A stretch of DNA of 57,313 bases. Origin: Thermoleophilia bacterium (GTDB lineage: Bacteria; Actinomycetota; Thermoleophilia; Gaiellales; JAICJC01). Below the pieces are notes generated by a model that was given only the letters and a program-made list of their open reading frames with translations, ran no database searches and was not told the origin of the DNA. The position numbers were made by a program, and so were the translations under genes. The DNA is taken from contig JAICKX010000007.1 in the NCBI GenBank assembly GCA_025927685.1, positions 1 through 57,313 on the forward strand. Reading direction: 5' to 3'. Positions 4,433 to 31,530 of this stretch are shown here, piece by piece (the stretch's first letter is position 1; the number at the start of each line of letters is the position of its first letter).

Positions 4433-5170
4433 GTGGAAGAGCTCTCCGAGGCCACGCAGGAGTACCTCGAGAGCATCTACTGGCTCTACGAAGCGGGCAT
4501 CGAGCGAACCCAGGCCAACCTGGCGCGGGCGCTGCGCGTGTCGCAGCCGTCGGCGTCGGAGATGCTGAAGCGGCTGGCGGATGAGGGCCTCGTGAGCCGC
4601 GACGATCACAAGCTGATCCAGTTCACCGATCGCGGCCACGAGGTGGCCGAGCGGATCGTCGCCCGCCACCGTCTCGTCGAGGCCTATCTGGTCAAGATCA
4701 TGGGGATCCCGTGGGACGACGTGCACGAGGAGGCCCATGCGATGGAACACTCCATCTCGCCGCGGCTCGAGGCGAAGATGCTCGAGATGATCGGCGAGGT
4801 GCGCACGTGCCCGCACGGGCATCCGATCGGGGACTACCCGCGCGAGCCCGGCGAGGCGATGCCGGCCGTCGAGGCCGGGAGCGAGGTCACGGTGCTCAGG
4901 CTCGAGAACGAGGCCGAGGAGATCCTGCACTACATGCACCGCGCCGGTGTCGAGCCGGGGCGGCGCTACACGATCGTCACGCGCTCCGGCGACGGCGACG
5001 ACGCGGTCACCGAGCTCGAGGATGAGGCCGGGAACCGCTCGACCGTCGAGGACCGGGTGGGCCGCACGGTGTCAGTCCGGGTGGAGTCGCGCGGCGACGG
5101 CCCGGTGTCGACGCTGGCCGACGCCTCCGCCGAGCTCCAGCTGCTCGGCGCCGACCGCTGGGGCATGTAG
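4433..5170 (+). CDS. DtxR/MntR family metal-dependent regulator with FeoA-like C-terminus
   Basis: YLESIYWLYEAG...RVSQPSASEMLKRLADEGLV winged helix, metal-site residues HRLVEAYLVKIMGIPWDDVHEEAHAMEHSIS. Confidence 0.9.
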   Translation: MEELSEATQEYLESIYWLYEAGIERTQANLARALRVSQPSASEMLKRLADEGLVSRDDHKLIQFTDRGHEVAERIVARHRLVEAYLVKIMGIPWDDVHEEAHAMEHSISPRLEAKMLEMIGEVRTCPHGHPIGDYPREPGEAMPAVEAGSEVTVLRLENEAEEILHYMHRAGVEPGRRYTIVTRSGDGDDAVTELEDEAGNRSTVEDRVGRTVSVRVESRGDGPVSTLADASAELQLLGADRWGM

Positions 5171-5204: not shown

Positions 5205-5445
5205 TCCTTGGAAAACAGACGGGGCGCACCGGCCAAGCCGGGTGCGCCCCGTCGCGGTGATATCGCTTTGGATTGGGTAGCGGCGATTGCTGTTCCGACC
5301 ACCTCAGGAGGTGACGGAGGCTATCCCAACGCCGGCTGCAGCGATTCCCCTTGGGTTCAGGGATTCGCCCCTACCCGCGAGCACCTCCACTCGCCCGTCT
5401 TGAACCGTCTAACAAGTCGGACCACCTCCTTTCCGCGGTCTGAGC
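5205..5445 (-). ncRNA. Putative free-standing structured small RNA of unknown family (~230 nt)
   Basis: Minus-strand promoter TTGGCT-N17-TACGAT (5446-5474) and 13-bp GC stem followed by TGTTTTCC (5208-5253); extensive internal complementarity; no tmRNA, RNase P or SRP hallmark seen. Confidence 0.6.
5208..5253 (-). terminator. Intrinsic terminator of the minus-strand RNA
   Basis: GACGGGGCGCACC / GGTGCGCCCCGTC stem with 10-nt loop, followed on the minus strand by TGTTTTCC. Confidence 0.75.
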
Positions 5446-5474
5446 ATCGTAGCAATGGCGGTCGCCGGAGCCAA
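5446..5474 (-). promoter_or_regulatory. sigma70-like promoter TTGGCT-N17-TACGAT
   Basis: -35 at 5469-5474, -10 at 5446-5451, 17-bp spacer; directs transcription into 5445-5205. Confidence 0.65.
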
Positions 5475-5497
5475 CCCCGGGCAGTAGATTGCGCCGG

Positions 5498-6127
5498 ATG
5501 CTCACCGCCTTCGTCACCGGGCTCGGATTCGGCCTCCTGGTCGCGGCCCAGATCGGGCCGATCTCGCTGCTTCTCATCCGCTCGGTCGTGCACGGCGGCG
5601 AGGCCGTGGTCGGCTTCGCGATCGGCGCCGGCGCCGCCGTTGTCGACACGGGCTACGCCGCGCTCGGGATCGCCGGCGCCGGGCCGGTGCTCGCCCACAG
5701 CGGCCTGCGCCCGGCGCTCGGGATCGTGGGAGCGGCGGTGATCGCCTGGCTCGGACTGCGGACGCTGTGGTCGGCCTTCCGGGTTCGTGCGGGGGGCGAG
5801 ATGGAGGCTGAGGTGCGAAGCCCGCGCCGGGCCTTCCTGACCTCGCTGGCGGCGACCGCGTCCAATCCCACCACGATCGGCTCGTGGGCGGCCATCTTCG
5901 CGGCGGCGTCGGCGGCCGGGGTCGCCCGCAGCGCCGGCGAGGCGGGCGCGATGCTCGCGGGCGTCGGGATCGGCTCGCTGGCGTGGTTCGTCGTCCTCTC
6001 GTGCGGGGTGGCGCTGGCGCGCCGGCACGTCGGCCCGCGGCTCGTCCGCACGGCCGACGCCGTGGCGGGGGCGGGCCTGGCCGGATTCGCCGGCGTGCTC
6101 GCCTACCGGGCCGGGACGGACGCGTGA
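5498..6127 (+). CDS. LysE/RhtB family exporter
   Basis: Hydrophobic LysE-like protein FVTGLGFGLLVAAQIGPISLLLIRS...TSLAATASNPTTIGSWAAIF; TAGATT 7 nt before ATG. Confidence 0.8.
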   Translation: MLTAFVTGLGFGLLVAAQIGPISLLLIRSVVHGGEAVVGFAIGAGAAVVDTGYAALGIAGAGPVLAHSGLRPALGIVGAAVIAWLGLRTLWSAFRVRAGGEMEAEVRSPRRAFLTSLAATASNPTTIGSWAAIFAAASAAGVARSAGEAGAMLAGVGIGSLAWFVVLSCGVALARRHVGPRLVRTADAVAGAGLAGFAGVLAYRAGTDA

Positions 6128-29518: not shown

Positions 29519-30229
29519 GTGGTGGCACTCTTCCCCACCTGCCTCGGCGAGGCGCTGAATCGGGCTGCCGTCCGCGACACCTCGCGCCTTCTGGCCGCGG
29601 CCGGCGTGGCCGCCGAGCAGCCGTCCGGCGCCACGTGCTGCGGCCAGCCGGCCTGGAACAGCGGCTTCGTCCGCGATGCGCGCCGGGTCGCCCGCCGCAC
29701 GCTCCGCGCGCTCGCAGACGCCGAGGCGGTCGTCGTCCCGGGCGGCTCGTGCGCGGCCATGATGCGGCTCCACTGGCGCGAGCTCTTCCGCGGCGAGCGC
29801 GACGAGGAGCTGGCCGAGGCGGTGGCGGCGCGAACGTTCGAGCTCTCCCAGTACCTCGTCGACGAGCGGGGCTGGGTGCCGCCCGAGCCCGCACGCAAGG
29901 CCGAGGTCTCCTACCACGACTCGTGTCACATGCTGCGCGAGCTTCGCCTGCACGACCAGCCGCGCGCGTTGCTCGCGGCCGTGTGCGACGTGCGCGAGCT
30001 GCCCAGGGCCGACCGCTGCTGCGGCTTCGGCGGCACGTTCTCGGTGCGCTACCCGGACGTCTCGACCGCCATGGCCGACGACAAGCTGGCCTCCGCGGCC
30101 ACGATCGCCGCGGCGACCGTGGCGAGCGCCGACCCGGGATGCGTCATGCAGATCGAGGGCCGGGCATCCCGGACGGGCGCCGGCGTGCGGGTCGCCCACC
30201 TGGCGACGATCGTGGCGGAGGCGCTGTGA
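29519..30229 (+). CDS. lutA: LutA/LldE-like Fe-S oxidoreductase subunit (Cys-rich)
   Basis: TCCGQPAWNSGF, SCHMLRELRL, CCGFGGTFSVRYPDVSTAM motifs. Confidence 0.9.
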   Translation: MVALFPTCLGEALNRAAVRDTSRLLAAAGVAAEQPSGATCCGQPAWNSGFVRDARRVARRTLRALADAEAVVVPGGSCAAMMRLHWRELFRGERDEELAEAVAARTFELSQYLVDERGWVPPEPARKAEVSYHDSCHMLRELRLHDQPRALLAAVCDVRELPRADRCCGFGGTFSVRYPDVSTAMADDKLASAATIAAATVASADPGCVMQIEGRASRTGAGVRVAHLATIVAEAL

Positions 30230-31530
30230 GCGGGTTCGAGGCCCGGTCGCGGGCCGCGCTCGCCGACCCGCGCAAGCGGGCGAACGTCCCCCGCTTCGCC
30301 GAGAAGGCGGCCTTGAACCGCGTGCGCGGCTTCGAGGGCGTCGACCTGGAGGCGCTGCGAGCTGCGGGCGAGGCGGCCCGGGCGCGCGCGATCGCAGACC
30401 TGCCGCGGCTGCTCGACGCCCTCCAGGCGAAGCTGGAGGCGGCCGGCGCGGTCGTCCACCGGGCGGCCACGGGCGCGGACGCCGCCCGCTACGTGACGGA
30501 CGTCGTCCTGCGCCACGGGCGGATGGTGGTGAAGAGCAAGTCGATGGCATCCGAGGAGATCGGCCTGAACGACCACCTGGAGGCGGCCGGCGTCGAGGTG
30601 GTCGAGACCGACCTCGGCGAGTTCATCGTCCAGACCGCCGGCGAGGCGCCCGAGCACATCATCATCCCGGCGATCCACAAGACCACCGGCCAGGTGCGTG
30701 ACCTCTTCGAGCCGCTGGCGGGCCGCCCGATCGGCGACGACCCGGCCGAGCTCACGAGGTTCGCGCGCGCCCACCTGCGCAAGCGGTTCCTCGAGGCCCC
30801 GGTCGGGATCACGGGCGTCAACTTCGCCGTCGCCGAGACCGGGACGATCGTCCTCGTCACGAACGAAGGCAACGGGCGCATGTGCTCGTCGCTGCCGAAG
30901 GTGCACGTCGCGATCATGGGGATGGAGCGCGTGGTCGCCGATCTCGCCGATCTGGCGGTGCTGCTGCCGCTTCTGACCCGCTCCGGCACCGGCCAGAAGA
31001 TCACCTCGTACGTGACGATGCTGAACGGGCCGCGCCGGCGCGAGGAGGGCGACGGCCCCGAGGAGATGCACGTCGTCATCCTGGATAACGGCCGCGCGCG
31101 GGTGCGCGAGACGCCCTATCGCAGCGTCCTTCACTGCATCCGCTGCGGCGCCTGCCAGAACGTCTGCCCGGTCTATCGCCAGGTGGGCGGCACCGCCTAC
31201 GGCTGGGTGTACGGCGGGCCGATCGGCGCCGTCCTGACGCCGCTCCTGCACGGCGACCAGGAGCTGGGCCACGCGTCGTCGCTCTGCGCCGCGTGCGACG
31301 ACGTCTGCCCGGTCCGGATCCCGCTCCACGAGCTCCTGCTCGGCCTGCGCCGCGACCGCGCCGCCGACTCGGCCGGCGCGCTCGAGCGGCTCGCGTTCCG
31401 GCTCTGGAGCCTCGCCTGGAGCCGGCCGTGGCTCTACCGGCTCACGGTCCGGATGGCCGGAACGGCCCGCGGCCCCCTGCCGCTCCTGCGGCGCTGGACG
31501 CGCACTCGCGACCTCGAGGTGCACCGGTGA
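30226..31530 (+). CDS. lutB: LutB/LldF-like Fe-S protein
   Basis: MVVKSKSMASEEIGLNDHLEAAG; HCIRCGACQNVCPVYR; CAACDDVCPVRIPL. Confidence 0.94.
   Translation: MSGFEARSRAALADPRKRANVPRFAEKAALNRVRGFEGVDLEALRAAGEAARARAIADLPRLLDALQAKLEAAGAVVHRAATGADAARYVTDVVLRHGRMVVKSKSMASEEIGLNDHLEAAGVEVVETDLGEFIVQTAGEAPEHIIIPAIHKTTGQVRDLFEPLAGRPIGDDPAELTRFARAHLRKRFLEAPVGITGVNFAVAETGTIVLVTNEGNGRMCSSLPKVHVAIMGMERVVADLADLAVLLPLLTRSGTGQKITSYVTMLNGPRRREEGDGPEEMHVVILDNGRARVRETPYRSVLHCIRCGACQNVCPVYRQVGGTAYGWVYGGPIGAVLTPLLHGDQELGHASSLCAACDDVCPVRIPLHELLLGLRRDRAADSAGALERLAFRLWSLAWSRPWLYRLTVRMAGTARGPLPLLRRWTRTRDLEVHR

Follow-up and report, generated by a model that had tools for sequence, protein, structure and literature searches.

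The window, by which we mean the whole stretch of 57,313 nucleotides analysed here, belongs to a draft, MAG-like assembly of a Thermoleophilia bacterium (198 contigs, 82% complete). A gene for a DtxR-family repressor and a gene for a LysE translocator, both recognised by Pfam as an earlier first-pass annotation had named them, flank a locus that carries on its minus strand an RNA gene with which dtxR is convergent (Table 1). For the minus strand, folding yields -115.6 kcal/mol (z = -3.56), a value that none of 200 shuffles equalled, and the plus strand of the same locus reaches z = -2.51.

The promoter proposed in the first-pass annotation is present upstream of the RNA. A generic sigma-70 scan fails to detect it, so that the claim is carried by comparative evidence: a TANNNT element lies 5-8 nt before the conserved start of the RNA in 101 of 139 homologs, against 6.75 expected from shuffled upstream sequences. 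The conserved part of the RNA opens with ACCRCGG, which in most genomes follows a TANNNT element at a distance of 6-7 nt. At the other end, the GC-rich stem and T-tract are found as first described, and a systematic scan detects a hairpin followed by T's in 103 of the 137 homologs with enough downstream sequence; the order-level loci that were inspected and extend far enough end in a GC-rich hairpin, usually with T's directly behind it. Conservation, covariation, promoter and terminator together uphold the earlier proposal of a free-standing structured RNA gene. Judged by sequence comparison, the locus is such a gene, with promoter-like and terminator-like signals of its own.

Table 1. Features of the RNA gene and its neighbours in the window
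Feature	Position	Strand	Details and basis
DtxR family gene	4433-5170	plus	Pfam
RNA gene	5212-5439	minus	predicted transcript ~228 nt; 5' end ~5439 (ACCGCGGAAAGG...)
Intrinsic terminator	5212-5253	minus	GC-rich stem 5253-5218, then TGTTTTCC
Helix P1, 3' strand GCGATATCACC	5256-5266	minus	imperfect in the window; alignment, covariation
Helix P2, 3' strand TCGCCGCTACCC	5275-5286	minus	sequence, covariation
Hairpin P3 TCCCTGAACCCAAGGGGA	5346-5363	minus	apical RACC conserved; alignment A1
Helix P2, 5' strand GGGTAGGGGCGA	5365-5376	minus	holds last sense codon and stop codon; covariation
Mini-ORF, 14 codons, TTG start	5371-5415	minus	MLDGSRRASGGARG (first codon read as M); stop TAG 5373-5371
Helix P1, 5' strand GGTGCTCGC	5377-5385	minus	ORF codons 11-13; covariation
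Second Shine-Dalgarno-like element GGAGGTG	5382-5388	minus	within the ORF; 14 nt from the start of GAGGT to the stop codon
Extended Shine-Dalgarno GGAAAGGAGGTGGTCC	5419-5434	minus	pairs without a break over 17 nt with the 16S 3' end, counting G-U
Promoter	5446-5474	minus	-35 TTGGCT 5474-5469, 17-nt spacer, -10 TACGAT 5451-5446
LysE gene	5489-6127	plus	Pfam

Conservation and relationship to Ms_IGR-5

By blastn, 49 of 61 relatives keep the RNA, as do 37 of the 38 whose genomes are of good quality, and copies are almost always single, so that the conservation expected of an RNA gene is present. Two covariance models were used, whose E-values, according to the tool itself, are approximate. R1 comprises 36 sequences, all from the window's order and the window among them. 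R2 is broader, being trained on the order group and the RF02471-type group plus four Deinococcota loci, with the window excluded. The window is matched by R1 at 5250-5440 (E 2.5e-24, as a training sequence) and by R2 at 5253-5439 (E 4.4e-12, from outside the training set). R1 matches 94 of 152 good genomes of the class and 57 of 293 of the phylum; R2 matches 113 of 293 good phylum genomes against 56 for RF02471, and thus doubles the number of actinobacterial genomes in which the RNA is recognised. No credible copy was found in the two nearest genomes of the same genus (G001 and G002) or in the sampled genomes of family f4, where loss, divergence or assembly gaps are possible reasons. Two MAGs labelled Burkholderiales (L242) and Acidobacteriota (L258) contain the RNA in its Thermoleophilia form (R1 E 4e-41 and 9e-29, respectively), and their contigs are probably mis-binned.

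An Rfam search of the window returns no match except a tRNA, and no known class is found at the locus at Rfam thresholds. (ARAGORN reports a tRNA-Gly at 30168-30255 on the plus strand, where the Rfam tRNA model is silent at its cut-off.) The first-pass description of the family as unrecognised is therefore accurate at those thresholds but does not hold beyond them, since relatives of the window RNA reveal homology to RF02471 (Ms_IGR-5), and the suggestion of a novel family is not borne out. RF02471 itself, whose gathering cut-off is 45 bits, fails to match the window even when E-values as high as 10 are admitted, and it has no match in the window genome or any sampled member of the order. Homology is nevertheless supported by independent models. 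In about 30 other Actinomycetota genomes, the two models R1 and RF02471 hit one and the same locus, on the same strand and with 5' ends within 2 nt; cmscan of four R1 loci (L095, L096, L097 and L103) returns RF02471 at 82-176 bits; and R2 finds the window without having been trained on it. On this sequence evidence, the window RNA is a diverged, Thermoleophilia-type relative of Ms_IGR-5 that falls short of the Rfam cut-off.

The two RNAs share a 5' Shine-Dalgarno (SD) sequence, a mini-ORF, a helix containing its stop codon, a 3' CACC and a terminator. A helix closing the end of the ORF against the 3' CACC, termed P1 below, is present and covaries both in the order group and in the RF02471 group, whereas the Ms_IGR-5 structure printed in Rfam is without it. 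They also differ in that the window ORF reads over its internal GAGGU in the SGG type of frame, and that of Ms_IGR-5 in the other, EV type.

RNA-seq data from S. lividans support Ms_IGR-5 (PMC8079986). In S. avermitilis it makes up an sRNA transcription unit (PMC8780764), and in M. smegmatis its locus overlaps that of ncMSMEG15794c (PMC10454040). A literature search without most subscription journals found no published account of its ORF, P1 helix or function, and no literature name for the M. tuberculosis homolog was found. What has stood in catalogues as an "sRNA" becomes a far more widespread RNA gene, usually single-copy and with a testable architecture.

The RNA also extends beyond the Actinomycetota. 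A pattern scan of named genomes found it in many Thermoleophilia/Gaiellaceae MAGs and in Truepera and other Deinococcota, and the Deinococcota loci that were fetched give R1 E-values of 1e-9 or lower. In the phylum that includes the Trueperaceae, R2 matches 37 of 112 genomes, 33 of them outside its training set; these genomes are presumably Deinococcota, since the centre of the search is named as Trueperaceae. Copies from the Trueperaceae and further genomes of the same phylum are represented by L202, L232, L247, L269 and L287-L308. The Deinococcota copies may derive either from vertical descent or from transfer between phyla.

The mini-ORF and its ribosome-binding signals

The first-pass annotation noted the lack of a long ORF at the locus, which is literally true but overlooks a conserved reading frame of 14 codons. 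In the window, it reads TTG TTA GAC GGT TCA AGA CGG GCG AGT GGA GGT GCT CGC GGG TAG behind GGAAAGGAGGTGGTCC. A mini-ORF of 9-15 codons ending at a structurally fixed stop is found in 138 of 139 actinobacterial homologs, which share kinship and hence do not count as independent; with the spacer shuffled, an ORF to the fixed stop is expected in 22%. The sole exception, L159, has no in-frame start among the seven start codons allowed. The distance from the beginning of GAGGT to the stop is 14 or 15 nt in 135 of the 138. In the Deinococcota, all 22 homologs inspected, none of which was used in the models, have the mini-ORF, and their GAGGT begins 17 nt before the stop. Initiation codons are mostly poor: TTG occurs 63 times, GTG 27, ATG 20, CTG 15, ATC 7 and ATT 6, so that 118 of 138 are non-AUG, and the 22 Deinococcota ORFs start with AUU, AUC, CUG, AUA or UUG, mostly the first three.

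In 138 of 139 homologs, the 5' end of the RNA can form an unbroken pairing of 15-20 nt, G-U included, with the 3' end of 16S rRNA. For comparison, 4-8 pairs are obtained with the 30-nt stretches preceding ORFs of 200 codons or more in the window, although many of these mechanically called ORFs are perhaps not genes. The 16S 3' end (GGATCACCTCCTTTCT) was read from five genomes, the window genome's own 16S being absent from its assembly. Such complementarity in front of a start that is seldom AUG would suit a decoy whose extended SD and poor start trap free 30S subunits (or the anti-SD) and so tune initiation capacity, with the ORF serving to free the ribosomes. This explanation fails to account for both the covarying helices around the stop codon and the fixed distance between GAGGU and stop, and we regard it as unlikely.

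The mini-ORF bears on the description of the gene as non-coding. That it is an RNA gene stands, but "non-coding" is doubtful given an ORF behind an extended SD in nearly every homolog and the significant ribosome reads that Ribo-seq detected for MS_IGR-5 in two mycobacteria, M. abscessus and M. smegmatis (PMC4974804), a study whose authors warn that co-sedimenting RNPs can mimic ribosome footprints. The same reads, and the excess of ORFs over the shuffled expectation, make it highly improbable that the RNA is an ordinary base-pairing sRNA with an incidental ORF, even though Rfam and transcriptomes of mycobacteria and streptomycetes list it as an sRNA.

The peptide appears less constrained than the frame. 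In the order-level alignment A1, indels within the ORF are mostly of 3 or 6 nt, and ORF lengths in the window's order differ by whole codons, while the spacer between SD and start varies by single bases. Constraint on the encoded peptide was sought by codon position and was not found, differences at the three positions being flat (1693/1819/1740). Since the frame is kept and codon positions show no bias, we infer from the alignments that selection acts mainly on translation and on the RNA, not on the peptide. Somewhat more changes are synonymous when read in the ORF's own frame than when the frame is shifted, and some constraint on the peptide is possible. Several peptide types occur on the one architecture (..SGGTSG, ..SGGGSS, ..GTLEVTGR and ..RTREVAAR), and the typical Deinococcota ending TSGGARRG resembles the ASGGARG of the window. 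In at least two homologs, the automatic choice of ORF took another frame (MTWFPGPWR and MTYGHVRWLPASRTR), the expected frame also being open there.

It is quite unlikely that the RNA is simply an mRNA for a functional micropeptide of 10-15 residues, its structure merely controlling synthesis. The near universality of the ORF would fit, as would the repeated occurrence of SDS close to the start and of SGG.. or ..EV.GR at the end, together with a serine at position 2 that is variously coded by AGT, AGC, TCA and TCT. Besides the unbiased codon positions, however, the C-terminal residues coincide with RNA motifs (GAGGU and P1), and the frame over GAGGU differs by lineage, which yields unrelated peptides.

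A long-range helix around the stop codon

The 12-nt complementarity reported in the first-pass annotation (GGGTAGGGGCGA against TCGCCGCTACCC, with one mismatch) is present and covaries strongly in relatives. It constitutes helix P2, which the 36-sequence alignment A1 extends outward as P1, and the stop of the mini-ORF is located where P1 passes into P2. A covariance check on homologous loci, as had been suggested, finds strong covariation in both helices: in the 36-sequence alignment, two-sided changes occur at ten pairs, five in each, two pairs of P2 each having them in 11 sequences. Over the whole structure tested, 58 two-sided cells are counted in that alignment against 17.7 after shuffling, and sliding the partner by a single column lowers pairing from 94% to about 40%. 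Among 135 sequences of the phylum, with 108 distinct pairs of P1 arms, an arm pairs with its own partner at a mean of -13.1 kcal/mol and with partners swapped between genomes at -8.1 +/- 0.2. Co-evolution reaches the stop codon itself in L040, where TAA replaces TAG and the opposite strand reads CTTGCG for CCTACG or CCTGCG. P3 is paired in 87% of cells, with little covariation. The GCGAG/CTCGC hairpin that was also described is present in the window, and its CTCGC side is part of P1, but as a hairpin it is not conserved: it is confined to L001, L003 and L007 among the 36 aligned sequences and was rejected as a family-wide element.

In the single-sequence minimum free energy fold of the window, P1 and P2 are absent and the SD is paired with an internal CACCTCC instead, so that the long-range helix rests on covariation. 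Pairing of the SD with this internal anti-SD (minus strand, 5313-5307) was considered as a conserved feature and set aside as sporadic, being significant in only 18 of 138 homologs (p <= 0.025). An anti-SD-like CACCTCC occurs in some lineages (the window, L102, L105 and L171), with 11 pairs in L102 and L105. A local GGCG...CGCC pairing, tried as a switch partner for P2, forms well (92% with P3) with covariation no higher than in shuffles, and was likewise rejected. In L012 (genome G049), both partners of GGCG, the local copy and the P2 3' strand, read CGTC in place of CGCC, as though the two rival arms were being held alike; this could also be coincidence.

A stop codon within a long helix, in a genome that has a tmRNA gene, brings to mind a generator of nonstop mRNA such as arfA. 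By analogy, a double-strand-specific RNase might cut P1/P2 at the stop, so that stalled ribosomes feed tmRNA. The helices are interrupted, however, the likeness to arfA is no more than an analogy and the cleavage is purely hypothetical, which leaves this possibility very improbable. Finally, the order of leader-peptide-like ORF, helix and terminator recalls a transcription-attenuation leader in which translation of the ORF regulates a downstream gene. In the window, no co-oriented gene lies directly downstream, the next gene being the convergent dtxR. Among the neighbours examined, kind and orientation vary by lineage, with genes for DtxR/LysE, aminotransferase IV, O-methyltransferase, adenine glycosylase and prephenate dehydratase. 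Because of this variation, which also speaks for a free-standing gene, a cis target is unlikely, and attenuation appears extremely improbable.

A proposed model of translation gating

Starting from the RNA gene, its ORF, the extended SD, the fixed stop position and the covarying P1 and P2, all of which sequence comparison demonstrates, one can propose with about even confidence that the RNA is a translation-gated regulator, in which the passage of a ribosome decides whether P1/P2 closes. A ribosome would dock at the very long 5' SD, start at a usually poor, non-AUG codon, translate 10-15 codons and terminate. The stop and the codons preceding it would provide the 5' strands of P1 and P2, and the second SD-like GAGGU would sit at the position of the ribosomal anti-SD as the stop enters the A site, where it may hold the finishing ribosome in place. 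A ribosome at the end of the ORF would keep P1/P2 open and the 3' strand, which ends in ..CACC beside the terminator, free; if the ORF is not translated, P1/P2 would close. The RNA would thus report ribosome loading, its ribosome-free or ribosome-bound form acting in trans or setting its own stability; candidate outputs are pairing in trans, binding of a protein, control of its own stability and 30S capture. Gating, and translation itself as the selected trait, are what we infer from these features, and no target or output of the window RNA was found in this analysis. A conserved ORF, a 5' end complementary to 16S rRNA and a helix that includes the stop codon suggest that the RNA is directly linked to ribosome loading, also in mycobacteria and streptomycetes, where genetics exists.

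More tentatively, and with clearly less than even confidence, translation gating may be narrowed to the sensing of initiation by an RNA family spanning Actinomycetota and Deinococcota, with a super-SD, a start codon (often AUU/AUC in Deinococcota) that IF3 would be expected to disfavour, a throw-away mini-ORF, a stop in a switch helix and the RNA instead of the peptide as output. If this is true, it would constitute a free-standing translation-gated regulator without a downstream gene, of which we know of no described example.

Comparison with other known RNAs

tmRNA offers an analogy to the window RNA, being likewise structured and holding a short reading frame with its stop in or close to a helix. 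The window RNA differs in having no tRNA-like domain and in possessing its own SD and start codon; neither ARAGORN nor the covariance model (RF00023) finds tmRNA at the locus, and the genome has a separate tmRNA gene, at G000:C45. 6S RNA (RF00013) was dismissed as well, its model giving no match at the locus, and the members of the order that do score for 6S do so elsewhere. SR1 and SgrS are dual-function RNAs, that is, small RNAs that also carry an ORF (PMC11133741); the window RNA resembles them in this combination, with no sequence relation shown.

A permissive search of the locus gave chance-level matches only, among them CC2171 (RF01867), a Caulobacter sRNA, at E 0.17 and 16.8 bits against a cut-off of 75. 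The two RNAs have a 5' GAAAGGAGGUG-UCC segment in common, with no further similarity shown, and the CC2171 consensus likewise opens with a GAAAGGAGGUGAUCC segment.
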